Part shown: positions 2,727-44,262 of the stretch, piece by piece | Layout: each line of letters opens with the position of its first letter | How positions within the stretch are numbered: position 1 is the first letter of the stretch | Assembly (NCBI GenBank): GCA_013214705.1 | Contig: JABSRZ010000009.1 | Location: forward strand, 1 to 64,000 | Length of the DNA stretch: 64,000 nt | Direction: 5' to 3' | Source of the DNA: Hyphomicrobiales bacterium | GTDB taxonomy: Bacteria; Pseudomonadota; Alphaproteobacteria; Rhizobiales; OSC116 | The notes under the pieces: generated by a model | Told to the model about the DNA's origin: nothing | What the model saw: only the letters and a program-made list of their open reading frames with translations | The model's database searches: none | Made by a program: the position numbers and the translations under genes

Positions 2727-3200
2727 TTACGTGCATTTCAGTGAGTGCGCCTGCAGGTGTTCGAAGCCGCTGCCGTCTAACGCGCGGAGGCTAGAAGACA
2801 CACACGCCAGTGGGTGGCTTCGCACGCAAGTGCCAACAGCCCGCCGATAGGTGGGCGTATAAATGCAGACTTCCAGAGTGTTGGCAGGAGCGATACCCAA
2901 GAGGTTGCTGAAAAGTTGTGATGTTGATGTTTTGTGCAGGAGTTTCCGCCACGGAACTAACGGTTGGCGCTGTAAAGACAATAGTAAGTTGGCACTCCTG
3001 CCAGCACTCTGGAAGTCTGCATTTATACGTTCTCTCGGCTTCGCCTCCTTCACTGTTAGCACTTGCGTGCGCAGCCCCTTGCTCCGCAAGTGTCAGCTAG
3101 CCTCCGCGCGTTGGCCGCAGAGTCTGCCTTACGGCTTCTGGGCGCACTCGCCGAATCGCAGGGGTGCTTGCGGGCAGATAGAAACTCAGCACAAACTGTC
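2727..3200. repeat. Mosaic palindromic repeat, copy A (left arm / core + / right arm)
   Basis: 35-bp inverted repeat 2856-2890 vs 2995-3029 with 1 mismatch (CGTATAAATGCAGACTTCCAGAGTGYTGGCAGGAG) around an about 104-nt centre; outer arms also inverted and similar. Core and arms recur at about 6.5, 7.6, 12.4, 33.4 and 44.2 kb. Confidence 0.92.
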
Positions 3201-3306
3201 ATAACTTTCCAGCTGTTACCTTTATATTCATAATTACGCGTTATATATAATGCATTAATAAAACAGTCAGAATTTAATTATACGCGCAACAAATATATAA
3301 AGGGAA

Positions 3307-3954
3307 ATGATAATGGCAACGAAACAAGGCCGTAAACCTCGCAGTTTGGCACAGGTTGAGGCCGTACGTGCTAATATTGTCATGCACGCGTTACAATTAT
3401 TTCAAACGGAGGGCTATAGCGCCATATCTATGCGCCGTTTGGCCAAAGAGGTAGGCTGCGCCCCCATGACAATCTATGCCCATTTTGACGGCAAAATTAA
3501 CATATTGCAGCATTTATGGGCGGTGGTATTAGACGCGGTATTTGACGATATTAAATTTAAATTGGACCATATAGGCGCCCCAAATGAACGTTTAAAAATA
3601 GCCTCTCAAAGCTTTGTCGATTATTGGGTTAACTACCCAGACCATTTTAGATTGGTATTTATGTCGAGCGATAAAAGCCGGCCAGATGTCGATAGTTTTA
3701 TAAAAAACAAAAGCACCTTGGCGCATTTCAAATATTTTTCGGGTCTGGTGATGACGGTGTTAAACCAACGCCACAGCCCAACCATTTCGCAAATAAAAAT
3801 ACAATCCGATATGCTCATCGGCGGGCTAATTGGCATGGCGTTTTGCCGCAACACAATTGGCGATTACCCTTGGGCAGATGTCAACCAGCTTATAGATAGT
3901 TTGTTGTTTGCTTTTGGGGTTAAGCCGAAGATAAAAACCATAGCCAAAAGCTAA
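3307..3954 (+). CDS. TetR/AcrR family transcriptional regulator
   Basis: N-terminal HTH ALQLFQTEGYSAISMRRLAKEVGCAPMTIYAHFDGKINILQHLW. Confidence 0.9.
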   Translation: MIMATKQGRKPRSLAQVEAVRANIVMHALQLFQTEGYSAISMRRLAKEVGCAPMTIYAHFDGKINILQHLWAVVLDAVFDDIKFKLDHIGAPNERLKIASQSFVDYWVNYPDHFRLVFMSSDKSRPDVDSFIKNKSTLAHFKYFSGLVMTVLNQRHSPTISQIKIQSDMLIGGLIGMAFCRNTIGDYPWADVNQLIDSLLFAFGVKPKIKTIAKS

Positions 3955-4858
3955 GGCTGAAAAACGCCATTATGGTGCTGATTAAAATGGCATTTGATGC
4001 CACATTCACCCCCCGGTCATAATAGGTTGAGAAAATATAAGCATTAACCCCTATCGGCATGGCGGCCAGCAAAATAAAAACCCGCGCGGTATCATACGGC
4101 AAACCCAAAAAGATGATGAGTATAAGCCAAACCAAAAACGGCAAGGCCAATAATTTCATGCCAGATATAACACTGGCCAAAAACCAAACCGACGACAATT
4201 TGTACTGCACCAACGCCCCGCCAATGCCAAACAACGCACAAGGCAATACGGCCAAAGTGAAGGTTTTGGTGACATCGTCCATTATATCTGGCTGTTCGAA
4301 ATTTAAATAATTGCCCAAAAACCCCAATGCAATGCCAATTAACAATGGCTGGGTGATGATGTTTTTACCGGCGATAACCAACGTATCACTCAGCGGTTCG
4401 GCATTGCGGCGCGACATTTCCATGGTGATCATGCCAATGGAGTAAAGCACCGGCGCATGCAACGCAACAATGGTAAACATTAACGCCGCGCCGGTATCGC
4501 CATAAGCCAGTTGAATGATTGGAAAACCAATGAGAATGCTATTGCCAAAGCAGCCAGCAAACCCGATAGACACTGATTCGCCCGGCCTGCGTTTAAACAA
4601 AAACCGTGCAATGAAAATGGATGCGGCAAACACCAACAGCGCCGCAATATAATATGGCAGCACATATTCCATTTTAAATACGCGGTTAAAATCCATCTCC
4701 AACATGGCCCGAAACAGCAATATCGGCGCGCCAATATTATGCACAAAAACCGTGAGGCCGCGCACCCCATCTTGCGGAAAATACTTAACTTTAACCGCCA
4801 GATAGCCGATAAAGATGAGCATAAAAACCGGGGCAATTATGGAGAAAATAAAAGACAT
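3920..4858 (-). CDS. AEC family transporter (auxin efflux carrier-like)
   Basis: Hydrophobic about 310-aa protein, FGNSILIGFPIIQLAYG motif; start chosen at MSFIFSIIAPVF. Its 3' end overlaps the end of the TetR gene (convergent). Confidence 0.85.
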   Translation of the reverse strand: MSFIFSIIAPVFMLIFIGYLAVKVKYFPQDGVRGLTVFVHNIGAPILLFRAMLEMDFNRVFKMEYVLPYYIAALLVFAASIFIARFLFKRRPGESVSIGFAGCFGNSILIGFPIIQLAYGDTGAALMFTIVALHAPVLYSIGMITMEMSRRNAEPLSDTLVIAGKNIITQPLLIGIALGFLGNYLNFEQPDIMDDVTKTFTLAVLPCALFGIGGALVQYKLSSVWFLASVISGMKLLALPFLVWLILIIFLGLPYDTARVFILLAAMPIGVNAYIFSTYYDRGVNVASNAILISTIMAFFSLSFWLWFLSSA

Positions 4859-5034
4859 AAGCCAACATAACCGCATTTTTGCCTAAGCCAGTAAACAATT
4901 TGTCGAAATTGGGGTTTTATCAAAAGAATATTGACGTTAATACAGAATAACGATAATTAGCTAGGTTAATAATTCAATTCCGGCCTGATGGATTAGGCGG
5001 TAGACCTATATTTAAAAAATAAAAGAGAACTAGC

Positions 5035-6348
5035 ATGTTTAAAGTAGAGCGCAGCCAATTTGGCAAAGATTTTGTATTTGGTGCAGCCACAGCCGCTTAC
5101 CAAATTGAAGGCGGGCAAACAGATGGCCGCGGCACTTCTATTTGGGATAGCTTTTCGCGCACACCGGGCAACGTGCATAATTTTGAATCTGGTGCTAAGG
5201 CCTGTGACCATTATAACTTGTGGCCGCAAGATTTGGATTTGATAAAAGATGCCGGGTTTGACGCTTACCGGTTTTCATTGTCTTGGCCGCGGCTTATACC
5301 CGAAGGCACCGGCGCAGTGAATGAAAAAGGCTTAGATTTTTATGACCGGCTTATCGATGGCATGTTAGAGCGTGGCATCAAGCCGTTTGCGACTTTATAC
5401 CATTGGGATTTGCCATCTGAATTGCAAGACAAAGGCGGCTGGATGAACAGAGACGTTGCCAGCTGGTTTGCCGATTATGCAGCCTTGGTGCAACAACGTT
5501 ATGGCGACCGCATTGCCACAACTGCCACTATAAACGAGCCTTGGTGCGTGGCATTTTTATCGCATTATAAGGGTGACCATGCCCCCGGTTATAAGGACAT
5601 TCGTGCCACCGCCCGCGCCATGCATCATGTGTTATTTGCCCACGGCAAAGCGGTTGAAGCCATGCGTGCCGAAGGCGGCGGCAATATGGGCATTGTGCTA
5701 AATTTCGAATGGGACATGCCAGCATCTGACAAGCTAGAAGACAAACAGGCTGCGCATATTGCCGATGGTATTTTTAACCGTTGGTTTTTAGATGGCATAT
5801 TTAAAGGCCAATATCCCGACGATATGTTAGCCGCTTTTGGCAGCCATATGCCGAAAGGTTTTGAAAATGACATGAAAACCGTATCGACACCGATAGATTG
5901 GTTGGGGGTGAATTATTACACCCGTCAAGTGTTGCAATATGACGCCACTGACCCGGTGTTTCCGCGCAAAGAAGTGCCGGGCGGTTTAGAAACCACCGAA
6001 ATGGGCTGGGAAATTTACCCAAAAGGTTTAGAAAACATTTTGACCCGTATATCTGACGATTATACCAAATTGCCACTATATGTGACCGAAAATGGCATGG
6101 CCGAAGTTGAAGGCTTGGACGACCCGCGCCGAGTTAACTATTATAACGACCATTTACAAGCCGTGCTGAATGCCAAAGCCAAAGGCGTGAATATGCAGGG
6201 TTATTTTGCGTGGTCGCTATTGGATAATTTTGAATGGGCAGAAGGCTATAATAAACGTTTTGGCTTGGTGCATGTAGATTATGAAACCCAAGTCAGAACC
6301 CCAAAAGCCAGCTACCGGGCGTTTCAAGGTATGTTGCACAATAGGTGA
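5035..6348 (+). CDS. Glycoside hydrolase family 1 beta-glucosidase
   Basis: FVFGAATAAYQIEGG, ATINEPWC, LYVTENGMA, GYFAWSLLDNFEWAEGYNKRFGLVHVDY. Confidence 0.95.
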   Translation: MFKVERSQFGKDFVFGAATAAYQIEGGQTDGRGTSIWDSFSRTPGNVHNFESGAKACDHYNLWPQDLDLIKDAGFDAYRFSLSWPRLIPEGTGAVNEKGLDFYDRLIDGMLERGIKPFATLYHWDLPSELQDKGGWMNRDVASWFADYAALVQQRYGDRIATTATINEPWCVAFLSHYKGDHAPGYKDIRATARAMHHVLFAHGKAVEAMRAEGGGNMGIVLNFEWDMPASDKLEDKQAAHIADGIFNRWFLDGIFKGQYPDDMLAAFGSHMPKGFENDMKTVSTPIDWLGVNYYTRQVLQYDATDPVFPRKEVPGGLETTEMGWEIYPKGLENILTRISDDYTKLPLYVTENGMAEVEGLDDPRRVNYYNDHLQAVLNAKAKGVNMQGYFAWSLLDNFEWAEGYNKRFGLVHVDYETQVRTPKASYRAFQGMLHNR

Positions 6349-6354
6349 GTAGAC

Positions 6355-6826
6355 TCTGAGTTTCTGGCTGGCACCTATATTCCGGGTTTCGTCAACACTC
6401 CCACCCAAAAAACTCATGTGTTTTTTGGGTTAGCCGGACTGGAGGCTGCCACTTATGTGGCGCACCCGCGTAGGCCAGCACGAAGTGCGGTATGGCCGTG
6501 AGCGAAATAAATGCAAGCACCCCTGTGTCGGCAGGAATGCTAACTTTCTTTGTCTTTACAGCCTTAAACGCTGGTTCAGTGGCTGAAACTCCTGTGCAAA
6601 ATATCTACATCACAGCTTTTCGGCAAGCTCTTGGGTGGCGCTCATGCCTAAACTCTGGAAGTCTGCATTTATACGTTCGGCTTAAGCCTCTCTGTTGACA
6701 CTTACGTGCGCTCGGCTTGGCCTCGCTAGCCTCCGCGCGTTAGTAGGCAGCGTTTGCCTCAAGGCTTCTGGGCGCACTCACCGAAATACTGGGGTGCTTG
6801 GGGGTAGACGGAAAATCTGAGTCTGC
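6355..6826. repeat. Mosaic palindromic repeat, copy B (hairpin module M2 / core - / right arm)
   Basis: Core 6530-6648 is the reverse complement of the copy A core; right arm (6650-6820) parallels copy A right arm; M2 module 6404-6501 recurs inverted at 43848-43946. Fills the gap between convergent genes. Confidence 0.9.
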
Positions 6827-7447
6827 TTAATCATCAAAATATTTTATCACGCGGGCGGGGTTGCCGACTGCTACGCAGCGGGCAGGTATATCTTTGGTCA
6901 CCACGCTGCCAGCGCCGATGGTTGTGCCATCGCCGATAGTCACGCCGCCCATAATAATGGCGCCGCCGCCTATCCAACATTTCTTGCCAATTGAAATGGG
7001 TTTGCAAATGTTTGTGTTAAAATCATCTTGGTCTGCATTGCCGGAAAAAAGATCTTCAAAATTATCGGGTATGCGCTCCTCAGGGTCGGCCGGATGGCTA
7101 GACGCCAGCAATTGTACGTGCGGGCCAATTAACGTATAATCGCCAATGGTTATTTTATTGCCATCTAAAAACGTGCAGCCGATATTGATAAAGCAATTGC
7201 CAATATGCGTATGGATGCCAAAATCTATGTAAAATGGCTCAGCAACGATTGTATTCTCACCGATTGAACCGAATATCTTGGCCAAGGCTGCATGTTTAGC
7301 CGCTTTATCTGCATCATCCACCGCCCGATAGGCCTTTAAACGGGTTTGAGCTTCCGCCGCCATAGCCATCAACTCTTCATCAATGCCGCAATAATACTTG
7401 CCCGCCAGCATTTTTTCATACTCCGATGGTTTTTTTGTCATTTTCAT
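6827..7447 (-). CDS. Sugar O-acetyltransferase (maltose/galactoside acetyltransferase-like, left-handed beta-helix)
   Basis: MTKKPSEYEKMLAGKYYCGIDEEL..., hexapeptide repeats, IGKKCWIGGGAIIMGGVTIGDGTTIGAGSVVTKDIPA. Confidence 0.92.
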   Translation of the reverse strand: MKMTKKPSEYEKMLAGKYYCGIDEELMAMAAEAQTRLKAYRAVDDADKAAKHAALAKIFGSIGENTIVAEPFYIDFGIHTHIGNCFINIGCTFLDGNKITIGDYTLIGPHVQLLASSHPADPEERIPDNFEDLFSGNADQDDFNTNICKPISIGKKCWIGGGAIIMGGVTIGDGTTIGAGSVVTKDIPARCVAVGNPARVIKYFDD

Positions 7448-7499
7448 AATCTCCCCAACTTACATTCTTATAGATGTATTCAGAGTGTCTAGCTAGCAC

Positions 7500-7880
7500 T
7501 CGTTTCCAAGCAACGTGGCCATCCAGTGAGCGCGAATGCGGCCGTTCGAAGCCGCTGCCAGCCAACGCGCGGAGGCTAGAAGACGCACACGCCAGTGTGC
7601 GGATTCGCACGCAAGTGCCAACAGAGAAGGAGGCGAAGCCGAGAGAACGTATAAATGCGAGCACCCCTGTGCCGGCAGGAGCGCTAACTGTCTATTGTCT
7701 TTACAGCATCAACCGCTTGCACACCGCCAGAAACCCCTACACAAAATTTCAACCACACAGCTTTTCAGCAACCTCTTTGCTCGCCCCTTTTACCCATGAC
7801 CAGCGTTAAGCGGCGGCTTCTGGGCGCACTCGTCGAATCACCGGGGTGCATGGTGGCAGATAGAAACTCGGCACCGGCTG
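7500..7880. repeat. Mosaic palindromic repeat, copy C (left arm / core - / truncated right tail)
   Basis: Left arm about 7516-7625 matches copy A left arm; core 7674-7786 in opposite orientation to copy A; right tail ggcttctgggcgcactcgtcgaatcaccggggtgc matches copies A/D/E. Lies between divergent genes. Confidence 0.9.
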
Positions 7881-7945
7881 TTAGGCATTTTATTATGCGG
7901 TGATTTGTGTAATTGTAGGCATAACAGATATTAAAGAGGCGAAAA

Positions 7946-8746
7946 ATGAAAAAAGTTAGCAACATTCTTGCCTCTGGCCTTTACCTGTTAGCTGGCGGCC
8001 AAGCCTATGCAAGTTGCAATTTAACCGATGGTGGCAGTTTTAAAATTGTCGAAGTGGTGGATGGCGATACGGTTATATTATCCTCTGGCAAACAGGTGCG
8101 CATGGTCGGCACGCAAGCGCCAAAACTGGCGTTAAACCGCAAAAACTTCATCGACTGGCCATTGGCCGACATCGCCAAGCAACAACTAGAAACCATAGCT
8201 TTGGGCAAAACCGCCAAGCTGAAATATGGCGGCCGCAAACTAGACCGGCATAACCGCATATTGGCGCATTTATATATTGATAATGCCGAGGGTGAAGAGG
8301 TCTGGCTGCAGGAATATATGCTAAAAACTGGCTTGGCGCGCACTTATAGTTTTAAAGACAACCGCTCTTGCATCGCGCAATTATTGGCCGCCGAAACAGT
8401 TGCCCGTAGCGCCCAAAAAAATATTTGGGGACATGAATATTACCAAATTATTGCCGCCACCGATTTGAAAAAACTGGTTGAAAAACATGGCACTTATCAG
8501 GTTGTCGAAGGCGAATTGCTAAAATTCGAGCATCTATATGGGCAGTTATATTTTAATTTTGGTGCCAATTACCGTACCGATTTCACCATCAATGTCGGCA
8601 AAGCTAACCGCATGGCCTTTGCGCAAACTGGCATAGATTTTAAAAGTCTAATCGGCAAGAAAATAAGAGTCAGAGGCTGGTTGGAAAAAAGGGGCGGCCC
8701 GATGATTGAAGCCACCCACCCCGAACAGCTAGAGTTTTTAGATTAA
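7946..8746 (+). CDS. Thermonuclease-family (SNase-like) exported protein
   Basis: Signal peptide; GGSFKIVEVVDGDTVILSSGKQVRMVGTQAPK; AKLKYGGRKLDRHNRILAHLYI. Confidence 0.85.
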   Translation: MKKVSNILASGLYLLAGGQAYASCNLTDGGSFKIVEVVDGDTVILSSGKQVRMVGTQAPKLALNRKNFIDWPLADIAKQQLETIALGKTAKLKYGGRKLDRHNRILAHLYIDNAEGEEVWLQEYMLKTGLARTYSFKDNRSCIAQLLAAETVARSAQKNIWGHEYYQIIAATDLKKLVEKHGTYQVVEGELLKFEHLYGQLYFNFGANYRTDFTINVGKANRMAFAQTGIDFKSLIGKKIRVRGWLEKRGGPMIEATHPEQLEFLD

Positions 8747-9696
8747 GCCACATTATGCGCTTTAAAAGTGGCGCGTAAGGCCTCATCTAGCGGTGTGGAT
8801 GGCACGCTGCCTAGCAACGCTTGTAATTTATTTTGGTTTAAGCTTTGTGCCACATCTGACATAAATCTCAATTCCATCATCTCGCCCAATGCCTTGTTAA
8901 AAATGCCAATGATGCGGATCATGCCCCATGGCATTTTGCCAATTTTAAGTGGTTTGTCGGCCGCTTTTTCGACCGCGTTGACCAATTCTTGGCCAGTTAA
9001 ATCAAAACCCTGATGGTGAAACACTTCAAATAAGCCTAGCTCGGCGCGATGGGCGATCAATTTAGCCCCAATCCGCCCCAAATCGGGCAAATAAGCCCAC
9101 GTGTGTTTTTTGTCATTGCGGCCTGCCAGTAATATTTTGCCTTTGGCCAAATTATCCAGCACCAGATATTTAAACATGCTGCTATCTGAAGAGTCTGGGC
9201 CTAAATAATCGCCCGCTCTAAGCACGATGATTTGCACCCCTTGGGTTTGGGCAAAATGCGCCATATCTTGCTCTAATTGTTTGCGAAATGCACCTTTTTT
9301 GGTAATCGGTTGTTGAGGCGATTGCTCATCATATAGCGGCCCATCTGCGGGTGAAAAATTGTAAATATTGCCCGCAAATAAAATGGTCGCGTTTAAGGTT
9401 TTGGCAGCCTGCATGATATTTTGGCTGACTTTTGGCATTAAATCCGCCCATTTGTCATACGGCATATTAACCCCGTGGACGATAACTTGGCAATCTTGAC
9501 CAGCCATTAATAAATCATCCATATTCAGCGCATCACCAGTAAATATAGTGACGTTTTTATGCCCCAGCATAAGCTTATCGGTAAATTTATCGGGGTTACG
9601 CATAAGCAAGTTTAAATGGTAACCATCTTGCAACAATGCCCGGGCTTGAGCTTTGCCAAAATTTCCTGTTGCGCCTAAAATAAGTGCTTTTTTCAT
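8743..9696 (-). CDS. NAD(P)-dependent epimerase/reductase-like (SDR extended) protein
   Basis: KKALILGATGNFGKAQARALL; VLRAGDYLGPD. Confidence 0.8.
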   Translation of the reverse strand: MKKALILGATGNFGKAQARALLQDGYHLNLLMRNPDKFTDKLMLGHKNVTIFTGDALNMDDLLMAGQDCQVIVHGVNMPYDKWADLMPKVSQNIMQAAKTLNATILFAGNIYNFSPADGPLYDEQSPQQPITKKGAFRKQLEQDMAHFAQTQGVQIIVLRAGDYLGPDSSDSSMFKYLVLDNLAKGKILLAGRNDKKHTWAYLPDLGRIGAKLIAHRAELGLFEVFHHQGFDLTGQELVNAVEKAADKPLKIGKMPWGMIRIIGIFNKALGEMMELRFMSDVAQSLNQNKLQALLGSVPSTPLDEALRATFKAHNVA

Positions 9697-9801
9697 GTCT
9701 ATCTCCGGTTAAAGTTAATAAGCCAATTTAACTCATGCAAAAACATATGCACAGCCGCTATTATTGTTGAACCCGTATGCAAAATTGAATAGGCTGTATT
9801 T

Positions 9802-10707
9802 ATGAAAAATATGGATTGGAATTTACTGAATAGTTTTTTGGCCGTCGCTTCTATGGGCAGCTTGTCCAAAGCCGCGGCATTTTTGGGCAGCACCCAGCCC
9901 ACCATTGGGCGGCACATAGAGCAGCTCGAAACCCAATTGAATGTGCGTTTGTTTGACCGCACCCAAAAAGGTTATAAAATTACCGAACTTGGCATGCAAT
10001 TGGCCGAACAAGCCAAAAGTATGAAGCAATATGCCGATAACATTTCGCTGATTGCGGCCGGCAAACAACAGCAAGTGGCCGGGGTCATTCGCATCACTGC
10101 AAGCGAGATGGTGGCGGTTAACCATCTGCCCAAGGCCATCCGCCAGATACGCAACCAACACCCCGAAATTCATTTTGAAATTGTCGCCAATAACCGCACC
10201 GATAACCTGTTAGAGCGCGAGGCCGACATCGCCATACGCATGTATCAACCCAACCAAGATGATTTGATTATTCGCAAAGTTAATGAGCTACAAATGGGCA
10301 TATATGTTAGTGACAAATACCCCAGATTTGCCGAAGCGCTAAAATTAACCTCGCAAAATCTGGATGAATTTTTTAGCCATGATTTTATCGGTTATGACCG
10401 CGACACATTGATTTTGGATGGGTTTAAACAGGTGGGCATAAAACACAATGGCAAAGATGTAACCAAACATATTTTTACCACCCGGTCTGACAATCATGAA
10501 GTTGTGTGGCAAAGCCTGCTAGCTGGCTTGGGGATTGGTTTTCAGGTGGTCAGCAGCTGCCAAAACCAGGCAGATTTGAAGCAAATATTAACCGAGTTTG
10601 AACTCGGCACCATGCCGATATGGGTAACTGCCCACAAAGAAGTCAAAACCTCGCGCCGAATTAGGCTTGTTTATGATAGGCTTTGCGACTATTTTGCCAG
10701 CATATAG
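9802..10707 (+). CDS. LysR family transcriptional regulator
   Basis: WNLLNSFLAVASMGSLSKAAAFLGSTQPTIGRHIEQLETQLNVRLFDRTQKGYKITE; divergent from the SDR gene. Confidence 0.93.
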   Translation: MKNMDWNLLNSFLAVASMGSLSKAAAFLGSTQPTIGRHIEQLETQLNVRLFDRTQKGYKITELGMQLAEQAKSMKQYADNISLIAAGKQQQVAGVIRITASEMVAVNHLPKAIRQIRNQHPEIHFEIVANNRTDNLLEREADIAIRMYQPNQDDLIIRKVNELQMGIYVSDKYPRFAEALKLTSQNLDEFFSHDFIGYDRDTLILDGFKQVGIKHNGKDVTKHIFTTRSDNHEVVWQSLLAGLGIGFQVVSSCQNQADLKQILTEFELGTMPIWVTAHKEVKTSRRIRLVYDRLCDYFASI

Positions 10708-10765
10708 TTTTATCTGCCATGCTGAAGTTAAGTCTGCCATTTTATAGTCTGTCTGAAAGTTAAAT

Positions 10766-11578
10766 ATGCTGTTTATTAGGTCACTCATTTTCAATGTTGT
10801 TTTCTACTTTCATATGTTTTTATGGCTGATAGTTTGCGTCATCGCGCTGCCGTTTCCCAAGGCCATGACCCGTTATGCCATGGTCACATGGGCGCACCAA
10901 GTGCCGTATTTGTTAAAATGGATCGCTGGCATAGAAATAGAAGTGCGTGGGTTAGAAAACATACCCGAAGGCAAAGTGATTGTGGCTTGTAACCATCAGT
11001 CTTTTTTAGAAATTATCCTATTGGCTAAATATCTGAAATTCCCGCTCATGATGTTTAAAGTTAGCCTTGGCCGCATACCCGCATTTGGCTGGTCGCTGTA
11101 CAAATTGCGCTTTATACCCATTGTACGTGGTGGCCGCGCCAAAACCATTAAATTCATCGTGCAGGCCTCTAAATCGCGCATTTTAGACAATGGTCAGGTG
11201 ATGATATTTCCCGAAGGCACCCGCGTATCACCGGGTCAAGTGTTGAAGTTAAAACAAGGGGTTATCGCCATATACGAGGCTTTGCATTTAGATTGCATGC
11301 CGGTGGCGCAAAATGCCGGGCTGTTTTGGGCGCGAAATTCATTTTATCGTTATCCGGGCAAAGTGGTTATCGAATTCATGCCGGTTATTCAAAAAGACCT
11401 GGAGCGCGAGGATTTTACCGAGCAGTTACACAGCGCCATGATGACCAAAAAACTGGCGCTTGAATTGGAAGCGTTTAACGCCCCAAACCCGCCGCCAGCA
11501 CCAGAAACAGCCAAATGGTTAGAGCAAGACAAACATAAATTATTTACCGTTAAAAATGGCGAAGTGACCTGTGAATAG
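10766..11578 (+). CDS. plsC: 1-acyl-sn-glycerol-3-phosphate acyltransferase
   Basis: VIVACNHQSFLEIILL (NHxxxxD-like), FIPIVRGGR, MIFPEGTRVSPG. Confidence 0.85.
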   Translation: MLFIRSLIFNVVFYFHMFLWLIVCVIALPFPKAMTRYAMVTWAHQVPYLLKWIAGIEIEVRGLENIPEGKVIVACNHQSFLEIILLAKYLKFPLMMFKVSLGRIPAFGWSLYKLRFIPIVRGGRAKTIKFIVQASKSRILDNGQVMIFPEGTRVSPGQVLKLKQGVIAIYEALHLDCMPVAQNAGLFWARNSFYRYPGKVVIEFMPVIQKDLEREDFTEQLHSAMMTKKLALELEAFNAPNPPPAPETAKWLEQDKHKLFTVKNGEVTCE

Positions 11579-11617
11579 GCATTTCCAAATCAAGCTATTA
11601 GCGCAAAGAGGTAGTCA

Positions 11618-12118
11618 ATGGCACATTTAAAAATGGATCGTATTTTCATCAAAATACTGTCGATATTGCAAAAAAATGGCCGCATATCTAATGCCGACCT
11701 GTCCGAACAAATTAACCTGAGCGCTAGCCCGTGCCATCAGCGTATGCGCAAACTCGAAAAATCTGGCATCATTAAAGGTTATTTGGCGCGCATAGATTTG
11801 GGCAAATTACGCCACCATGACACGGTGATAGCCGAGGTGACATTAAATTCGCATAATATGGAAAGCTTTGCCCAATTTGAGCAATTTGCCCGCAGCCATT
11901 CGCGCATTGTCGAATGTTTTAAAGTCTCTGGCGCGTTTGACTATTTTGTACGGTTTGTGTGCAAAGATATGGAAGAATATACCAATTTAAGCGACGAAAT
12001 ATTAAGCCAAACCAACGCCGCCACCGTAAAAAGCTTCGTAGTGCTGCAACATGTCAAAGAGTTTAATGGCTACCCCCTCGATGAGCTAGTTGAAGACCAG
12101 CCTGAATATATAGAGTAA
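11618..12118 (+). CDS. Lrp/AsnC family transcriptional regulator
   Basis: ILSILQKNGRISNADLSEQINLSASPCHQRMRKLEKSGIIKGYLARID. Confidence 0.93.
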   Translation: MAHLKMDRIFIKILSILQKNGRISNADLSEQINLSASPCHQRMRKLEKSGIIKGYLARIDLGKLRHHDTVIAEVTLNSHNMESFAQFEQFARSHSRIVECFKVSGAFDYFVRFVCKDMEEYTNLSDEILSQTNAATVKSFVVLQHVKEFNGYPLDELVEDQPEYIE

Positions 12119-12640
12119 CCGTCTGCCCCCGCATCCACACAACGTGCCATTCAGTGAGCGCGACGCATGCGCAGATCTTCGCGAGGAAAGGGGCGAGCCA
12201 ACTTGTTGGCGAACTTGGCCATTGAGGCCCGCCCGTTAGGGCGAGCAAGCACGCCGGAGGCGTGCGCCCGCAGGGGCCACTAGCCCGCCGAAAGGTGGGC
12301 GTAAAAATGCAGACTTCCATAGCTTCAGCAGGAGCGCCGCCCCAGAGATTGCTGAAAAGCTGTGATGTTGAAAGTTTGCGCAGGAGTTTCAGACAACGAA
12401 CCACCGGTTGATGCTGTAAAGACATCGACAGTTAGCGCTCCTGCCGATTGTACGGGTACTCCCATTTATACGTTCTTTCGGCTTCGCCTCCTTCACTGTT
12501 GGCACTTGCGTGCGCAGCCCCTTGCTCCGCAAGTGTCAGCTAGCCTCCGCGCGTTGGCCGCAGAGTTTGCCTTACGGCTTCTGGGCGCACTCGTCGAATC
12601 ACCGGGGTGCTTGGGGGCAGACGGAAACTCGGCACAAGGG
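12119..12640. repeat. Mosaic palindromic repeat, copy D (hairpin module M1 / core + / right arm)
   Basis: Perfect 12-bp terminal inverted repeat CCGTCTGCCCCC (12119-12130) / GGGGGCAGACGG (12613-12624); M1 at 12190-12273; core 12327-12445; right arm as copy A. Starts directly after the Lrp stop codon. Confidence 0.92.
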
Positions 12641-12704
12641 AGTTTAGTCATTGCAATTGCTCGCAATTCCGGTTATACCTCCCTGCAAAAATGTAGGAGC
12701 GGTT

Positions 12705-13991: not shown

Positions 13992-14117
13992 GTTTCATAG
14001 GTATATTTTACAAATCGGTTTTTAATCCATATAGTGTATTTGGCAAACCGGCGAATCGATTATTGTGAAAATAAATACGAGATAATTGGGTATTAACTCA
14101 ATTTAAAGGGTCAAAAT

Positions 14118-16475: not shown

Positions 16476-16601
16476 CCGGATTCATTCACCATAATTCACA
16501 AAAAAATACTGGTTTAAATCTGCTATATAATTTAATAATGAGTTGACGATACCTATTAGGTGAGTTTGATGGCCTAAAGCCTCGTTTTAAAAAGTAATTA
16601 C

Positions 16602-19417: not shown

Positions 19418-19421
19418 GCCC

Positions 19422-27017: not shown

Positions 27018-27026
27018 AACCTCACT

Positions 27027-29024: not shown

Positions 29025-29036
29025 TTCATCACCTGC

Positions 29037-30338: not shown

Positions 30339-30362
30339 GTCGACCTATAAAGTCGGGGCTAT

Positions 30363-31082: not shown

Positions 31083-31116
31083 AAATGTTCACAATCCTTC
31101 ACTCTATCTATATAAA

Positions 31117-32064: not shown

Positions 32065-32152
32065 ATTCACAGCTTGCCTCATGGTGGCGTTTATTATAAA
32101 AGCGTCTCATATATGTATATATATCGCATTTAGGTCAAGTGGGTTTAATCAA

Positions 32153-33208: not shown

Positions 33209-33229
33209 ATAGTACGGGTGCTAAGTAAA

Positions 33230-33720
33230 CCTCGGCATATTCGGCGAGTGCGTCCAACTACAGCTCTTCGTGGGAAAAAGGGGCGAGCCAATTTATTGGC
33301 GAACTTGCCGACTGAGGCCGCCCGTTAGGGCGTAGCAAGCACGCGGAGGCGTGCGCCCGCAGGGGCCACTAGCCCGCCGAAAGGTGGGCGTAAAAATGCA
33401 GACTTCCAGTGTGTGGGCAGGAGCGCCACCCAAGAATTTGCCGAAAAGCTGTGATGTTGATATTTTGTGCAGGACGTTCAAGCACCGAGCCTGCATCTGA
33501 GGCTGTCGAAGACACAGACAGTTGGCACTCCTGCCGATTTTACGGGTACTCCCATTTATACGTTCGGCTCCGCCTCACTGTTGACACTTGCGTGCGCAAC
33601 CACTTGCTCCGCAATTGTCAGCTAGCCTCCGCGCGTTGGCCTCTGAGTTTGCCTTTCGGTTTCTGGGCGCACTCGTCGAAACACAGGGATGCTTGGGGGA
33701 AGTCGGAAATTCAGCACATG
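33230..33720. repeat. Mosaic palindromic repeat, copy E (M1 / core + / right arm)
   Basis: M1 33280-33362, core 33416-33535, right arm 33536-33700; same layout as copy D. Confidence 0.92.
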
Positions 33721-33960
33721 CTTGTTAACACTTACATTAAGTTAACAGAGGTTAACAGTTGGAATTGTGCCATAAACGGCAATTGACGGTGGTTACAGCC
33801 AGCAAACCTAACCGCTTGCTAACAATATAATTTGGTTAATTGGTTAACACCAAATCGTTAACAGTTATTAACTATGCCCAACAATTAGCCAGCAAGAGCT
33901 ATACTTTAACCGCCAAATCAGTTACAGCTTAAAGCCTATAATTAACAAATATGGGCGCAG

Positions 33961-34965
33961 TTGGTGACGATAAAAATTAACAAAGTGGGCATTATGGGTG
34001 GCGGTGCTTGGGGCACAGCATTGGCGACAGTGGCGGCAAAATCTGGGCACCAAACGCTTATTTGGGCATATGAGCCAGAGGTGGCAGCAGCCATTAACCA
34101 AACCCATGAAAATAGCGTATTTCTAAAAAATGTCGCGTTACAAGCAAATATCAAAGCTACCAATAATCTGGCCGATATGGCCGATATGGACGTGATCTTA
34201 TGGGTCACACCAGCGCAGGTTTTGCGGCCAGTGGCAAAAGCCTTTGCTGAATTTTTGCTCAAACCAATGCCGATCTTAATCTGCGCCAAAGGCATTGAGC
34301 AAAGCACCCGCATGTTAATGACCGAGGTGATGCAAGAAAACTTGCCATTAGCGCAAGCGGGTATATTGTCTGGCCCCAGTTTTGCCATCGATGTCGCCAA
34401 AGGCTTGCCCACCGCCATAACTTTAGCGATGGAGGATGCGGCTTTAGGTTTAGATTTGGCCAAAGCATTATCTATATCGACGTTTCGGCTCTACCCTTCT
34501 ACTGACATTATCGGCGCACAGATAGGCGGCGCGGTTAAAAATGTGTTGGCCATTGCCACCGGCATTGCCGATGGCAAAGGCTTTGGCGATAGCGCCCGCG
34601 CCGCACTGACCACACGCGGTTTTGCTGAGTTAACCCGGTTTGGCAAGGCTTTGGGCGCAAAACCCGAAACGCTATTTGGCCTTTCGGGTCTGGGTGATTT
34701 AACTTTAACGTGTAACAGTATATTATCGCGCAACATGTCGCTCGGCATGGCATTGGGCCAAGGCCAAACTCTGGCGGAAATAATGCAAACCCGCCAGAGC
34801 GTTAGCGAAGGTGTACACACATCGACCATATTGGCCAAATGGGCAGATGAATTAAAAGTCGACATGCCCATTTGCCGAACCGTGGCGCAGATTGTGGCCG
34901 GCAATTTAGACGTCGACACCGCCATAGAAAACCTACTCAACCGACCATTACGACCACAAGAATAA
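33961..34965 (+). CDS. gpsA: NAD(P)H-dependent glycerol-3-phosphate dehydrogenase
   Basis: VGIMGGGAWGTALATVAAKSGH, CAKGIEQ, ILSGPSFAIDVAKGLPTAIT; TTG/GTG start. Confidence 0.96.
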   Translation: MVTIKINKVGIMGGGAWGTALATVAAKSGHQTLIWAYEPEVAAAINQTHENSVFLKNVALQANIKATNNLADMADMDVILWVTPAQVLRPVAKAFAEFLLKPMPILICAKGIEQSTRMLMTEVMQENLPLAQAGILSGPSFAIDVAKGLPTAITLAMEDAALGLDLAKALSISTFRLYPSTDIIGAQIGGAVKNVLAIATGIADGKGFGDSARAALTTRGFAELTRFGKALGAKPETLFGLSGLGDLTLTCNSILSRNMSLGMALGQGQTLAEIMQTRQSVSEGVHTSTILAKWADELKVDMPICRTVAQIVAGNLDVDTAIENLLNRPLRPQE

Positions 34966-34975
34966 AGGGATATAC

Positions 34976-35260
34976 ATGTATTTTGCAGTTTCGTGTTACG
35001 ACAAAGACGACAGCCTAGCGCTGAGAATGGCAACCAGAGAGGCGCATTTGGCTTTTGTGGCCAAAAACCGCAGCCAATTTATTTTGGTTGGCCCATTATT
35101 GAGTGATGACGAGCAAATGATTGGCTCTCACCTGATTATTGAAGCCAATGACCGCACCGCGCTGGACAATTTACTGGCCAGTGACCCCTATAGTGAGGCA
35201 AAACTTTTTGCCAAAACCACAGTGAAAGCCATGAAAATCGCTTTTTCGACTGAATTATAA
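34976..35260 (+). CDS. YciI family protein
   Basis: Ferredoxin-like fold sequence; alphaproteobacterial gpsA-YciI-EVE order. Confidence 0.88.
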   Translation: MYFAVSCYDKDDSLALRMATREAHLAFVAKNRSQFILVGPLLSDDEQMIGSHLIIEANDRTALDNLLASDPYSEAKLFAKTTVKAMKIAFSTEL

Positions 35261-35277
35261 CCTTCGAGCTATATCTT

Positions 35278-35715
35278 ATGAATTATTGGTTATTTAAATC
35301 CGAACCCGAAGCTTGGGGCTGGCAAGACCAAAAAAACCGTGGTGCCAAAGGCGAGCATTGGGATGGAGTGCGCAATTACCAAGCCAATAACCACATGAAG
35401 CTCATGAAAATTGGCGATTATGGGTTTTTCTACCATTCTGTAAAACAAAAATCCATCGTCGGCATCGTTAAAATTATCAAACAACATTACCCAGACCACA
35501 CCGACCCCAAGGGGCGCTTTGGCATGGTCGACATTATGGCCATAGCCGATGTACCCAACCCGGTTAGCCTGGATGCCATTAAAGCCAATTCGGCATTGGC
35601 CGACATTATATTGGTTAAAAACAGCCGACTTTCGGTACAGCCTGTTTTGCCCGCAGAGTGGGATATCATCTGCCTTATGGGAGGTGTCAGCCCCTCCGAT
35701 TGGCAAAATAAATAG
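35278..35715 (+). CDS. EVE domain-containing protein
   Basis: MNYWLFKSEPEAWGWQDQKNRGAKGEHWDGVRNYQANNHMKLMKIGDYGFFYHSVK. Confidence 0.95.
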   Translation: MNYWLFKSEPEAWGWQDQKNRGAKGEHWDGVRNYQANNHMKLMKIGDYGFFYHSVKQKSIVGIVKIIKQHYPDHTDPKGRFGMVDIMAIADVPNPVSLDAIKANSALADIILVKNSRLSVQPVLPAEWDIICLMGGVSPSDWQNK

Positions 35716-35777
35716 CAATTTGATTTTTTGCGCTATTTATTGTTAACTATAAACTCAATCAAAACAGGGAATAAATT

Positions 35778-36182
35778 ATGGAAATGGTTAGCTTAAATTA
35801 TTGGGGTATTTTGGCCGGCGCTATTGCCGCCTTTGTCGTTGGCGCTGTTTGGTATGGCGCTTTGGGCAAACAATGGCAAGAAGGTTTGGAAAAAACCATC
35901 GATGTCGATGGCCCTTCGCCGATGCAAATGATTGTTAGCGGCATAACCTCTTTGGTTGGCATTGTGGGCATCGCCTATATATACGGCCTCAACGGCGGTG
36001 CTGGCATTGTCGATGGCTTATCGACCGGCCTATTGGTGACCCTATTATTCACCATGATGCCCATCGCAAACAATTATAGCTGGGCGGGGCGTAAATTTAA
36101 ACTGACATTGATAGACGTTGGCCATTACATCGCCAGCTTTGCCGTTGGCGGCGCGGTTTATGGTTTTGTGGCAGCATTTTAA
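35778..36182 (+). CDS. DUF1761 family membrane protein
   Basis: Small integral membrane protein, GAIAAFVVGAVWYGALGKQW motif. Confidence 0.8.
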   Translation: MEMVSLNYWGILAGAIAAFVVGAVWYGALGKQWQEGLEKTIDVDGPSPMQMIVSGITSLVGIVGIAYIYGLNGGAGIVDGLSTGLLVTLLFTMMPIANNYSWAGRKFKLTLIDVGHYIASFAVGGAVYGFVAAF

Positions 36183-36297
36183 AACTTAAATATCATGGTT
36201 AAAATTGGCACGAATGGACGACTCCCATTTGTGTCACTTTATTGATAGGTTCTGCACAAGAATTTAAAAGATATTGGGCGCATTCATTAACCTCCAC

Positions 36298-36389
36298 GCC
36301 TTCGAGCTAGCAAATGTGCAACATTTGGTTGCGAACAAGGTAAGACAAAAAGCCTTCGAGCCCGCAACTGGCTCGAACAGGGCAAGACA
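36298..36389 (+). promoter_or_regulatory. Two tandem stem-loop units in the acs 5' leader
   Basis: GCCTTCGAGC..CGAACAAGGTAAGACA (36298-36347) and GCCTTCGAGCC..GGCTCGAACAGGGCAAGACA (36352-36389); internal hairpins CAAATGT-GCA-ACATTTG and TTCGAGCC-N7-GGCTCGAA. Confidence 0.55.
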
Positions 36390-36404
36390 TTAAAAGGGAT
36401 ATTC

Positions 36405-38342
36405 ATGTCTGTAGAAAAGATTACACATTCACAAGCAAGTTTTACAAACAAAAACACGGTTGATCAGGCAAGATACCAACAATTGCACAATCGTTCTGTG
36501 CAAACTCCCGATGCTTTTTGGGGCTATCATGGCCAACGCATCGACTGGATAAAACCCTTTACCAAAGTTAAAAACACCAGTTTTGAAGGCGATGTGTCGA
36601 TCAAATGGTTTGAAGATGGCACTTTAAATGTCTCGGCCAATTGCATCGACCGTCATCTGGCAACCCGCGGCGACAAAACCGCGATATTGTGGGAAGGCGA
36701 TAACCCAGATGAATCGCAATCCATTTCTTATAAAGAATTACACAAACAAGTCTGTTTATTTGCCAATATGTTAAAAGCCCATGGCGTAAAAAAAGGCGAT
36801 GTGGTGACGCTATATATGCCGATGATACCCGAAGCGGCTTATGCCATGCTGGCCTGCACCCGCATTGGTGCGCCGCATAGTGTGGTATTTGGTGGCTTTT
36901 CGCCCGAAGCTTTGGCCGGCCGCATTAACGCCTGCAAATCTAAATTCATTGTCACGGCAGACCAAGGTTTTCGCGCTGGTAAAACCGTGCCGCTTAAAGT
37001 CAATGTCGATGCCGCGCTAGAAAAAACCAATGGCGGCGAAAAAGTATTTGTGGTCAACCGCACAAATGCGGATGTGGCGTTTGATGCCAGCCGCGACATT
37101 TGGCACCATGAAGCCATTAAAGGCCTATCGACAACCTGCATACCCGAAGAAATGAAAGCCGAAGACCCACTATTTATTCTCTACACCTCTGGCTCGACTG
37201 GCACGCCAAAAGGTGTATTACACACAACTGGTGGCTATTTGGTTTATGCCAGCATGACCCATAAATATGTTTTCGACCTAGCCGAAGATGATGTTTTTTG
37301 GTGCACTGCCGATGTCGGCTGGATAACCGGCCATTCCTACATTGTTTATGGCCCGCTAGCCAATGGCGCCACCACTTTAATGTTTGAAGGCGTGCCGACA
37401 TATCCAGACGCATCGCGGTTTTGGAATGTGATTGATAAACATCAGGTCAGCATTTTTTACACCGCCCCCACCGCCATCCGCGCACTTATGGCACAAGGCG
37501 ATGAATTTGTTATCAAAACTGACCGTTCTTCATTACGTTTGCTGGGCAGCGTCGGCGAACCGATTAACCCCGAAGCTTGGGAATGGTATTATAACGTCAT
37601 CGGCAAAGGCAAATGCCCCATTGTCGACACATGGTGGCAAACCGAAACTGGTGGCATATTAATTTCGCCATTGCCCGGCGGTGCGCCGCTCAAACCCGGC
37701 AGCGCCACCCAGCCATTTTTTGGCGTGCAGCCACAAATTGTCGATAATGAAGGTTATGTATTAGAAGGCGAAACCGAAGGCCTACTTTGCATTACCGATA
37801 GTTGGCCCGGCCAAATGCGCAGCATTTATGGCGACCATGAACGCTTCATCCAAACTTATTTCAGCACGTTTAAAGGCAAATATTTTACTGGTGATGGCGC
37901 AAAACGTGACAAAGATGGCAATTATTGGATAACCGGCCGGGTTGATGATGTCTTAAACGTATCTGGCCACAGAATGGGCACAGCCGAAATTGAAAGCGCG
38001 CTAGTGGCGCATCCTGCTGTGTCTGAGGCGGCGGTGGTTGGCTACCCGCACGACATTAAAGGCCAAGGCATCTACACCTATGTCACCTTAATGCATGACG
38101 GCATACCATCTGCAGAGCTAAAAATTGACTTGGTTAAATGGGTGCGCAAGCAAATTGGCCCGATTGCCACCATCGACAAATTGCAATTTGCGCCCGGCCT
38201 ACCAAAAACCCGCTCGGGCAAAATTATGCGGCGTATTTTGCGCAAAATTGCCGAAGATGAATATGGCAATTTAGGTGATATATCCACCCTAGCCGACCCA
38301 AGCGTAGTGGATGAACTGATTAAAAACCACGAAAATATGTGA
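36405..38342 (+). CDS. acs: Acetyl-CoA synthetase
   Basis: [83 protein letters not shown]. Confidence 0.97.
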
Positions 38343-38379
38343 TAAGTTTCGGGGAACTTCTGACAGTGAGGTAACAAGG

Positions 38380-38572
38380 GTAAAAGGGGCGAGCCAACTT
38401 GTTGGCGAACTTGGCCATTGAGGCCCGCCCGTTAGGGCGTAGCAAGCTTTCGGAGAAAGCGCACGCAGTGTTAGGTACAAAAAGAGGCGAGCCAACTTGT
38501 TGGCGAACTTGCCGACTGAGGCCGCCCGTTAGGGCGTAGCAAGCTTAACGAAGTTAAGCGCACGCAGTGCCA
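38380..38572. repeat. Repeat copy F: two tandem M1 hairpin modules, no core
   Basis: M1 at 38386-38469 and 38484-38569, each GRGGCGAGCCAACTTGTTGGCGAACTTG...CGCCCGTTAGGGCGTAGCAAGC-[variable stem]-GCGCACGCAG. Confidence 0.92.
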
Positions 38573-38623
38573 AGCAAAAATGAGCGGGGCAACACCACCA
38601 TTATCCCGGCCGCATTTTACCGC

Positions 38624-38875
38624 TCAAAAATCACTAGTAATGCCCTTATTTTCCCAATCCGCATAGCGCGTTGGCTCCAAACCTTTTTCGCGCCCATTAT
38701 ATTCTCTATCCATATTGTTGGCGACATCATCTATTTTTTGCCGACGCGCCGCCGCTTCTCTAATGGCTTCTTCGGCCGCTACCGACAATTTTTTACCCTT
38801 GGCCGCGCCAAGTTTTTCTAGTTCTGTTCGGTTGTGAGGGGCTTTAACCTCACTATAATGTAATTTGTCGCTCAT
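38624..38875 (-). CDS. DUF1674 domain-containing protein (SDHAF4-like)
   Basis: C-terminal GLEPTRYADWENKGITSDF. Confidence 0.88.
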   Translation of the reverse strand: MSDKLHYSEVKAPHNRTELEKLGAAKGKKLSVAAEEAIREAAARRQKIDDVANNMDREYNGREKGLEPTRYADWENKGITSDF

Positions 38876-38924
38876 TTTTTCAACATAGTCTTAAAAACTT
38901 GACTTAGGCAATAAAAAAGCGTTT

Positions 38925-40370: not shown

Positions 40371-40425
40371 GCTTGCAATGCCTAGTTTAGCTAGTTATGT
40401 TGTAAATTAAGTATAACAGGGTATC

Positions 40426-42147: not shown

Positions 42148-42241
42148 GTGAAAGCAATTACCAGTGGCGCACAAAGCCACTATATGTTAAATCAGCGTCA
42201 ACCCACTATAGACCAATTTGTTACGGCATAAAGGAATAGTC

Positions 42242-43834
42242 ATGACCGCCAAAAACCCACCCATTTTACGCGCCTTAATTTCATTATCAGACAAAACTGG
42301 GCTGATAGAGTTTGCCCAAAAATTGCACGATTTAGGCGTCGAATTGCTCTCGACTGGCGGCACAGCTAAAGCCATTGCCGATGCCGGAATACCGGTTAAA
42401 GATGTGGCCGACATTACCAAATTTCCAGAAATGATGGACGGACGGGTTAAAACCTTACACCCCGCCGTGCATGGCGGTCTGCTGTCACTGCGCGACAATG
42501 AACAACATGTCAAAGCCCAAGCCGAATATAATATACCCAATATCGACTTATTGGTGGTTAACCTATACCCATTTGAAGCCACCGTCGCCAAGGGCGGCGA
42601 TTATGAAGACTGTGTCGAAAATATCGACATTGGTGGCCCAGCAATGATCAGAGCCGCGGCTAAAAACCATGGTTTTGTGACCGTGATTTTGGAAAATAAA
42701 GATTACGACTTGGTGCTTGGTGAAATGGCCGAAAATGCTGGCGCAACCAAGTTAGACACCCGTAAAAAACTGGCTGCCAAGGCCTATGCCCGCACCGCAG
42801 CATATGATGCCGCCATTGCCAACTGGTTCGCCAAAACTTTAGACCTATCCACCCCCGATTATCGTGCCTTTGGTGGCAATTTAAAACAAAGCCTACGTTA
42901 TGGCGAAAACCCGCACCAAACTGCCGCCTTTTATGTGAATGGTGACAACCGCCCCGGCGTCGCCACCGCCCAACAATTGCAAGGCAAAGAGCTGAGTTTT
43001 AACAATATTAACGACACAGATGCGGCGTTTGAACTGGTGGCAGAATTTGACCCCAGCCACACCAAAGCCGTGGCCATCATCAAACATGCCAACCCGTGCG
43101 GCGTGGCAACTGGTAGCGATTTGGTCGCCATCTATAAAGCCGCGCTAAAATGTGACCCAACATCGGCATTCGGTGGCATTGTGGCCGTAAACGACACCAT
43201 TGATGCGGCATTGGCGACAGAAATTGTCAAAGTGTTTACCGAGGTCATCATCGCACCAGACGTGACTGATGAAGCCCGCAGCATTATTGCCGCCAAAAAG
43301 AATTTGCGCCTGCTTATAACTGGCGCTTTGCCAGATACCAAAGCCCAAGGCCTTAACATTCGCTCGGTTTCTGGCGGCATGTTGGTGCAATCGCGCGACA
43401 ATGGCTGTGTCGATGATTTAGAGCTTAAAGTGGTGACCAAAAAAGCCCCAACTGAGCAAGAAATGGCCGATATGAAATTGGCGTTTAAAATTTGCAAACA
43501 TGTGAAATCTAACGCAATTATCTATGTCAAAAACGGCGCAACCGTTGGCATTGGCGCTGGCCAAATGAGCCGGATAGATTCGACCCGGGTGGCCGCACAA
43601 AAATCTATCGACGCAGCCGCAACCGCAGGTGAAACCGGCAAATTAGTCGAGGGCAGTGTGGTGGCTTCCGACGCTTTCTTCCCATTTGCCGATGGCCTAT
43701 TGGCCGCCGCCGAAGCCGGCGCGACCGCCATCATCCAACCCGGCGGCAGCATGCGCGACGATGAGGTTATCGCCGCCGCTGATAAAGCCGGCCTAGCCAT
43801 GGTATTCACCGGCATGCGGCATTTTAAGCATTAA
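42242..43834 (+). CDS. purH: Bifunctional AICAR formyltransferase/IMP cyclohydrolase
   Basis: [67 protein letters not shown]. Confidence 0.97.
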
Positions 43835-43839
43835 TGAAT

Positions 43840-44262
43840 CAATATCGCTCACGGCTATTCTTCGCTTTGCTCAGGCCTACATGGGTGCGCCACATAAGTG
43901 GCGGCCTCCAGTCCGGCTGGTTCAAAAAACACATGAGTTTTTTGAACGGGAGTTGTCCGGCAACTTTGTGCTGAATTTCGGAAAACCGCCGACACTGATT
44001 CCATGTGGGAAAAAGGGGCGAGCCAACTTGTTGGCGAACTTGGCCATTGAGGCCCGCCCGTTAGGGCGTAGCAAGCACGCGGAGGCGTGCGCCCGCAGGT
44101 AAGCTTTGAGCGCAGCGAAATGCGCTAACAGTGACAAGGCCGACAGGCCGCAGGAACGTATAAATGCAAACTTCCAGAGCACCGGCAGGAGCGCTAACTG
44201 TCAATGTCTTCACTGCATCAACCACAGGCTCAGAGCCCGAAACTCCGGGAAGTTTGTGCTGA
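43840..44262. repeat. Mosaic palindromic repeat, copy G (M2 inverted / M1 / partial core -)
   Basis: M2 43848-43946 is the reverse complement of copy B M2; M1 44015-44098; partial core 44184-44246; end agtttgtgctgag recurs as an inverted repeat with aactttgtgctgaatttc at about 43962. Confidence 0.9.

Follow-up and report, generated by a model that had tools for sequence, protein, structure and literature searches.

The stretch analysed here, called the window in the following, comprises positions 1 to 64,000 of contig JABSRZ010000009.1 (C45:1-64000) of a Hyphomicrobiales bacterium, whose own genome (G000) is a draft of 3.5 Mb in 45 contigs. Between its genes lie seven blocks of related palindromic repeats, copies A to G, which a sequence-only reading had described as mosaics of shared modules. 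With a repeat search and with nhmmer profiles that the window copies supplied for each module (arm, core, M1, M2), we recovered all seven blocks where they had been placed and with the same module layouts; together they take up 4.6% of the window, about 2.9 kb. The proposed left and right arms are both present, but one is the inverted form of the other rather than a module of its own, and M1, which indeed occurs in copies D, E and G, is nested there inside an arm.

Modules of the seven window copies

The copies are listed with coordinates, strand, module and score against the profile of that module.

Copy A, 2719-3195: arm/core/arm
2719..2895, +, left arm, 120.8 bits (nhmmer)
2877..3003, +, core, 110.2 bits (nhmmer)
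2986..3195, -, right arm with the end GAAACTCAGCACAAA, 211 bits (nhmmer)
Copy B, 6394-6820: M2/core/arm
6394..6515, -, M2 with the hairpin ACCCAAAAAAC/GTTTTTTGGGT, 113.6 bits (M2 profile)
6459..6546, +, inner part of an arm (nhmmer)
6529..6654, -, core, 119.1 bits (nhmmer)
6636..6820, -, arm, 145.1 bits (nhmmer)
Copy C, 7475-7874: arm/core/outer tail of arm
7475..7689, +, arm, 143.8 bits (nhmmer)
7673..7779, -, core, 91.2 bits (nhmmer)
7813..7874, -, outer tail of the second arm, 40.3 bits (nhmmer)
Copy D, 12107-12637, Lrp-lysC gap: arm with nested M1/core/arm
12107..12338, +, arm with nested M1, 76.4 bits (nhmmer)
12187..12273, +, M1, 69.5 bits (nhmmer)
12322..12446, +, core, 125.6 bits (nhmmer)
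12430..12637, -, second arm, 196.2 bits (nhmmer)
Copy E, 33238-33719, tsaD-gpsA gap: arm with nested M1/core/arm
33238..33428, +, arm with nested M1, 77.5 bits (nhmmer)
33274..33362, +, M1, 80.9 bits (nhmmer)
33410..33536, +, core, 111 bits (nhmmer)
33520..33719, -, second arm, 172.7 bits (nhmmer)
Copy F, 38380-38573: M1/M1
38380..38468, +, first M1 with the hairpin CTTTC-GGA-GAAAG, 89.2 bits (nhmmer)
38480..38567, +, second M1 with the hairpin CTTAAC-GAA-GTTAAG, 75.2 bits (nhmmer)
Copy G, 43840-44248: M2/M1-in-arm/partial core
43840..43961, +, M2 with the hairpin GTTCAAAAAAC/GTTTTTTGAAC, 130.9 bits (M2 profile)
43965..44199, +, arm with nested M1, starting with the terminus TTTGTGCTGAATTTC, 98.8 bits (nhmmer)
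44009..44098, +, M1 with the hairpin CACGC-GGAG-GCGTG, 85.7 bits (nhmmer)
44183..44248, -, partial core with the end CCGAAACTCCGGGAAGTTTGTGCTGAG, 54.4 bits (nhmmer)

A full copy consists of an arm on the plus strand, a core and an arm on the minus strand, measures about 470 bp and folds into a single long imperfect hairpin. The terminus TTTGTGCTGAGTTTC stands at the outer ends of the arms, and with the arms mutually inverted the elements possess terminal inverted repeats (TIRs). The outer end reads TTTGTGCTGAGTTTCCGTCTGCC, and because an inverted near-copy of it, GAAACTCCTGCACAAA, sits inside the core, copy G looks like a basic unit of about 270 bp with such ends on both sides. The core of copy A holds TTTTGTGCAGGAGTTTC, which likewise resembles the terminus. 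M1 is 88 bp long, arms are about 200 bp and the elements about 200-530 bp. Besides full copies we found solo arms, halves of arm and core, M1 alone, paired or nested in an arm, and M2 joined to any of these; each arm and each M1 is a string of hairpin slots. The elements are non-coding, with no reading frame kept across swapped modules, and their G+C content is 56% compared with 46% overall.

All seven copies are intergenic by the gene call, as had been proposed. Copy A lies between a ThuA-like gene (2067-2714) and a TetR gene (3307-3954), Pfam bears out the pairs Lrp-lysC and tsaD-gpsA, and M2 of copy B is an inverted repeat (81%) of 43835-43953 on the M2 side of copy G. The reported lack of a transposase holds for the 13 window proteins scanned with Pfam, none of which is one. 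Since an Rfam scan of the window matched only a tRNA, the repeats are not a catalogued structured RNA. Within its own genome copy A finds matches of up to 85% identity across about 380 bp (E 6e-121), and it folds far better than its shuffles (z -11.2 as RNA, at -249.6 kcal/mol, and -10.1 as DNA); the similarity is therefore not due to chance.

A dispersed family inserted behind genes

Copies were counted in stretches of the own genome sampled around copies (about 0.42 Mb) and by pattern counts over the whole genome; the stretches were picked for holding copies, so that their copy density is not that of the genome. Self-comparison gave 84 repeat regions, and the profiles matched 112 arms, 52 cores and 51 M1 modules, a small overlap between two stretches (L083 and L084) being counted twice in the profile figures. 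A genome-wide count gave 59 exact occurrences of the arm motif GAACGTATAAATG and, for a reversed 13-base control pattern, 8 at up to one mismatch. The own-genome search, a check that had been asked for, thus confirmed a dispersed family with dozens of copies beyond the window. Together with the differing flanking genes, this number rules out segmental duplication. The copies are unevenly spread: none of the 59 exact arm motifs lies in C23:1-732000, where 12.3 were expected (p 5e-6), yet copies abound in the last 220 kb of that contig, and dnaA (C41:11812) lies in a copy-dense part.

Copy A was matched in all five congeners and in none of 55 other genomes of the order. Two of the congeners are element-poor, with only three matches in G003 and seven in G004, while G001, G002 and G005 are element-rich like G000. 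At E 1e-6, copy G matched its own genome only, among 385 genomes sampled across the class without congeners. A pattern scan of named genomes found the same repeats in metagenome-assembled genomes (MAGs) of marine alphaproteobacteria labelled OCS116 cluster, Hyphomicrobiales or Alphaproteobacteria (isolates NORP83, NORP94, NORP194, NORP335, BB6 and DT_98), and the arm profile also confirms elements in BB6, DT_98 and NORP335. Neither the plasmid records nor the IMG/VR viral contigs that we searched contained a match, and we therefore rejected carriage by plasmids or phages. The family is real, sizeable and restricted to the genus.

Comparison of orthologous gaps, suggested earlier for Lrp-lysC and tsaD-gpsA, demonstrated that these and other gaps are empty or nearly so in congeners. 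Gap C measures 498 bp in G000 and about 85 bp, free of elements, in G001 and G005; the Lrp-lysC gap of copy D has about 580 bp compared with about 30 bp in G003, and the tsaD-gpsA gap of copy E has 752 bp compared with 83 bp in G004 and 107 bp in G003. Gaps F and G are element-free in G003 and G004. Because of these empty gaps, the blocks are insertions relative to the congeners. At gaps B, D, E and G, G001 and G005 carry copies of their own, which are composed differently from those of G000. No target-site duplication is visible at the outer ends, the flanks of the empty sites being too diverged for alignment at base level.

The elements had been described from convergent, divergent and co-directional gaps alike. 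All three occur, but with a strong bias: 40 of 80 element regions lie in convergent, 37 in co-directional and only three in divergent gaps, while the 216 background gaps of the same DNA comprise 44 convergent, 127 co-directional and 45 divergent ones. The convergent excess (Fisher p 1.2e-6) and the divergent deficit (3/80 vs 45/216, p 1.5e-4) rest on a simple codon-scored gene call with gaps of at least 40 bp; as the element gaps are themselves part of the background, the test is conservative. Most elements start within about 20 bp after a stop codon, and in a few cases (L100:16932, L091:2339) the stop of the upstream gene is supplied by the element's own TGAGTTTC or TGAATTTC. The elements sit behind stop codons and avoid divergent, promoter-bearing gaps. 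At the end of the acs gene, G004 has a T-tailed hairpin terminator, AAAAGAGCAGAGTTTTCTCTGCTCTTTTT, where G000 has the two M1 copies of gap F; M1 may therefore lie at, or replace, a terminator there.

Hairpin stems, loops and their exchange

The stems vary while remaining paired. The M2 hairpin occurs in nine distinct forms with every cell paired, and five of its 11 pairs have changed on both sides (covariation score 0.364 vs 0.170 shuffled). In the last hairpin of M1 this applies to three of six pairs (0.622 vs 0.147), and longer forms such as CGATAC-GGA-GTATCG, CTTAAC-GAA-GTTAAG and CAACAC-GGA-GTGTTG have kept the loop. The alignments were selected for equal length and hairpin form, so these scores illustrate covariation rather than prove it.

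The loops, in turn, follow a rule. Counting distinct hairpins with at least five pairs, we found C-GNA-G in 21 of 46 triloops inside the elements vs 24 of 953 outside (Fisher 9e-19), and C-GNNA-G in 16 of 57 tetraloops vs 28 of 1131 (Fisher 1e-11). Loop and C-G closing pair are thus enriched 11-18 fold on one strand; shuffled elements yield 0-5 (GNA) and 2-6 (GNNA) such loops. Moreover, GCGNAGC reaches a density of 5.7/kb inside the elements and 0.41/kb outside. Stable tetraloops of RNA follow the rule GNRA. As only 8 of the 30 distinct GNNA loops in the elements do so, this RNA rule is not what is kept. DNA hairpins that combine a GNA or GNNA loop, N being any base, with two or more G-C pairs have exceptional stability and resist nucleases; GCGAAGC has a melting temperature of 78 C (PMC4686876). 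Judged by their letters, the element hairpins fit this rule for extra-stable DNA minihairpins, with a GN(N)A loop and a C-G closing pair. On the earlier question of mobile DNA or structured RNA, the loop rule points to DNA hairpins and leaves some room for RNA.

The rule is confined to one strand. In the arms, 266 rule-following hairpins (48 distinct) lie on the strand that runs from outer end to core and two on the other; in M1 the numbers are 76 and 0. Shared descent inflates these counts, yet a lineage that lost the rule would have shown. Odd pairs on the hairpin strand are more often G.T than A.C (16 vs 5; 22 vs 4), hence the folding of that strand is under selection. GC skew is too weak and mixed to show a replication-strand bias of the elements.

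Whole hairpins are exchanged between copies. In the own-genome stretches, 113 instances of the slot flanked by GCWAG and GCRCNCGCA contain 52 different fillings; these are mostly self-complementary, and several recur, up to 13 times. In 27 own-genome copies of M1, whose four hairpin slots each have at least two forms, nearly every pair of slots, spaced 10-25 nt apart, shows all four combinations (four-gamete test). The only pair without them consists of the last hairpin and the bases immediately downstream. Recurrent mutation could mimic this pattern where forms differ by one pair, but hardly at the last hairpin, since its forms differ at several pairs.

The same is seen between G001 and G005, which are about 91% identical. 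In gap D one hairpin of about 28 nt has been replaced in place with its flanks unchanged, and a 35-bp hairpin (GCGCCGTGAGCGGAGCGAGGAAGTGC...) is present in G001 and absent from G005 at three places; in gaps E and G larger blocks have been replaced. At gap B, G001 looks like the product of a deletion that fused two G005 copies at CTTCCAGAGCAT. The swapping of modules noted earlier is therefore real, but the unit of exchange is smaller than the modules then named: it is the single hairpin of about 15-35 nt. In the GH1-acetyltransferase gap, G005 (L173, G005:C16) has an MFS-like gene and two copies. All that G001 retains there is a single fused copy and a remnant of the gene, which looks like a deletion between copies.

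Origin of the family and its meaning

With somewhat more confidence than doubt, we regard the blocks as a genus-restricted family of non-autonomous, non-coding mosaic palindromes, similar to miniature inverted-repeat transposable elements (MITEs) and bacterial interspersed mosaic elements (BIMEs), in which one strand is kept foldable into minihairpins of single-stranded DNA and hairpins are exchanged between copies. The conserved trait would be the folding of that strand, as single-stranded DNA, into very stable minihairpins, and the single strands would arise in replication or repair. Stalled forks may be where copies trade hairpins, through template switching or gene conversion of short tracts. 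To reach new gaps the elements would need an enzyme, which may have been lost or may work from another part of the genome. A bolder proposal, which we put forward only tentatively, is that the hairpin itself is the unit of inheritance: a strand-specific library of GN(N)A hairpins, recognised by their structure as single-stranded DNA, would be moved slot by slot among the genomic copies, by an enzyme or by template switching at forks. If so, the composite repeats would be assembled and reassembled in place.

Several points weigh against the family of exchanged DNA minihairpins that we favour. The distinct hairpins share descent, so that the Fisher values of 9e-19 and 1e-11 overstate their independence, and the excess of G.T over A.C is expected from selection on one strand of RNA as well as of DNA. 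Current transposition is not demonstrated, as we saw no recent gain of a whole element between G001 and G005 in the stretch compared. Looking for a RAYT, for the integrase IntI and for a partner with the same ends, we found no candidate for a mobilising enzyme in the draft genome; neither a target-site duplication nor an element with the same termini around a transposase was seen.

It is rather unlikely that the blocks are simply MITEs derived from an insertion sequence (IS), that is, deleted IS copies with TTTGTGCTGAGTTTC TIRs, moved by a transposase in trans, whose hairpins are passive and whose mosaics stem from ordinary gene conversion. The inverted termini, the full, partial and nested copies and the intergenic insertions absent from congeners would all agree with this, and the layout suggested earlier is indeed MITE-like: short, non-coding, multi-copy and with inverted termini. 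Bacterial MITEs such as NEMIS/Correia, ERIC, RUP, BOX and QMITE are likewise non-coding, intergenic and of high copy number, with inverted termini, nested clusters and strong predicted folding (PMC10969869, PMC3733652). However, their TIRs measure 15-30 bp (PMC3733652), whereas the arms here are about 200 bp long and each a string of exchangeable hairpins, and MITEs are described as typically AT-rich while these elements are rich in G+C. A target-site duplication and a partner transposase were not found, although the draft genome may hide a partner. Among 33 terminus matches in the genome (up to two mismatches) there was one new convergent pair, C23:823604/825845, which we rejected as an autonomous partner: it is due to chance and encloses ordinary genes, which read as HAD-like and EAL-like frames. 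An IS origin would also leave the loop rule, the strand bias and the exchange of 15-35 nt unexplained.

Selection on transcripts is another explanation: the elements would be hairpins in 3' untranslated regions, acting as terminators or stabilisers of mRNA, with pairing kept by compensatory change. Their position directly behind stop codons and in convergent gaps, the stem covariation of M2 and M1, the preference for G.T on one strand and the terminator of G004 at gap F speak in its favour. We nevertheless consider it improbable, as the GN(N)A loops lack GNRA enrichment (8/30) and the mirror-image arms of full copies favour neither transcript strand. In co-directional gaps, the orientation of solo arms and M1 relative to transcription is split only about 13 to 6, a terminator scan of 1-13500 revealed no excess (23 vs 19.6 expected), and Rfam gave no match. 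Mutation bias alone, in which template switching in quasi-palindromes keeps stems complementary without selection, is very hard to credit. Such switching is documented to create and maintain hairpins (PMC8794818), and it may contribute to the upkeep of the stems here. The shared GN(N)A loops, the strand bias (266 vs 2), the excess of G.T over A.C and the recurrence of the same cassette in different copies would not be expected from it.

Repetitive extragenic palindromic (REP) units are palindromes of 20-40 bp with a GTAG or CGTC tag and are tied to RAYTs. Movement of REP/BIME elements by such a Y1 HUH transposase would suit mosaic palindromes at gene 3' ends, and REP systems recognise them as single strands, but here it is highly improbable. 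Y1_Tnp (PF01797) is absent from the element-rich G000, G001, G002 (71% complete) and G005 and occurs only in the element-poor G004 (C334:4573-4932, C46:8348-8710, C208:4083-4256), the reverse of what RAYT-driven spread would lead one to expect; this largely refutes a RAYT/REP origin. The BIME/REP of enterobacteria and the RIME of Rhizobium resemble our family in being mosaic palindromes that lie at the 3' ends of genes and in convergent gaps; the units here, in contrast, are the 88-bp M1 and the arms of about 200 bp, and a RAYT is absent. RIME, which is cited in PMC2873474, comes from the same class, Alphaproteobacteria. The comparison with it was indirect, through element queries only; these found no match in plasmids, including any rhizobial megaplasmids there, in 55 genomes of the order or in 384 other alphaproteobacteria.

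The attC sites of integrons form one-strand hairpins with variable self-complementary parts and are recognised by structure. The elements resemble them in both the one-strand hairpins and the variable self-complementary parts, but they are scattered between housekeeping genes and not arranged in cassette arrays. We rejected attC because there is no IntI: TIGR02249 stayed below its cut-off, with Xer-like matches only. Repetitive hairpin elements of sponge, fungal and algal mitochondria share the invasion of intergenic regions, double hairpins and rearrangement hot spots (PMC2800124); the sponge elements, however, keep their stems and vary in their loops, whereas here it is the loops that are conserved and the stems that vary. 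Small intergenic mosaic palindromes of MITE-like type are thus the known part. To our knowledge, exchange hairpin by hairpin under a one-strand DNA loop rule is new, as we found no earlier description of it in the literature searched.

Relative to G000, G003 and G004, G001 has the gpsA-acs block (33961-38342 in the window) inverted. Both junctions carry copies, and other joins at copies are seen in G005. The sites concerned are L171 (G001:C2:45000-64900), L172, L176 and 33209-38624 of the window. The inversion and the other joins may stem from recombination between copies or from misassembly of MAGs: every genome here is a draft or a metagenome assembly, and misjoins arise at repeats of 300-500 bp. 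Between nearby copies there are also accessory genes, for a ThsB-type TIR protein (L087:2628-3149), a KAP NTPase (L086:2669-4651), a DUF6119 protein (L092:11268-12995) and a protein with a Tle1-like phospholipase domain (L096:8060-9118); such neighbours are expected from the copy density.

With copies at rearrangement junctions, the family may shape gene order in its lineage. Most bacterial intergenic palindromes are read as leftovers of IS elements or as RNA signals. Here, the exchange of hairpins can be followed in orthologous gaps of sister species, with one strand retaining a DNA-type loop rule. Two questions thereby become testable: whether the structure of single-stranded DNA in a chromosome is acted on by selection or by a recombination enzyme, and how perfectly paired stems are renewed. 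The family therefore lends itself well, as a natural example, to the question of whether DNA hairpins are themselves mobile and evolving.

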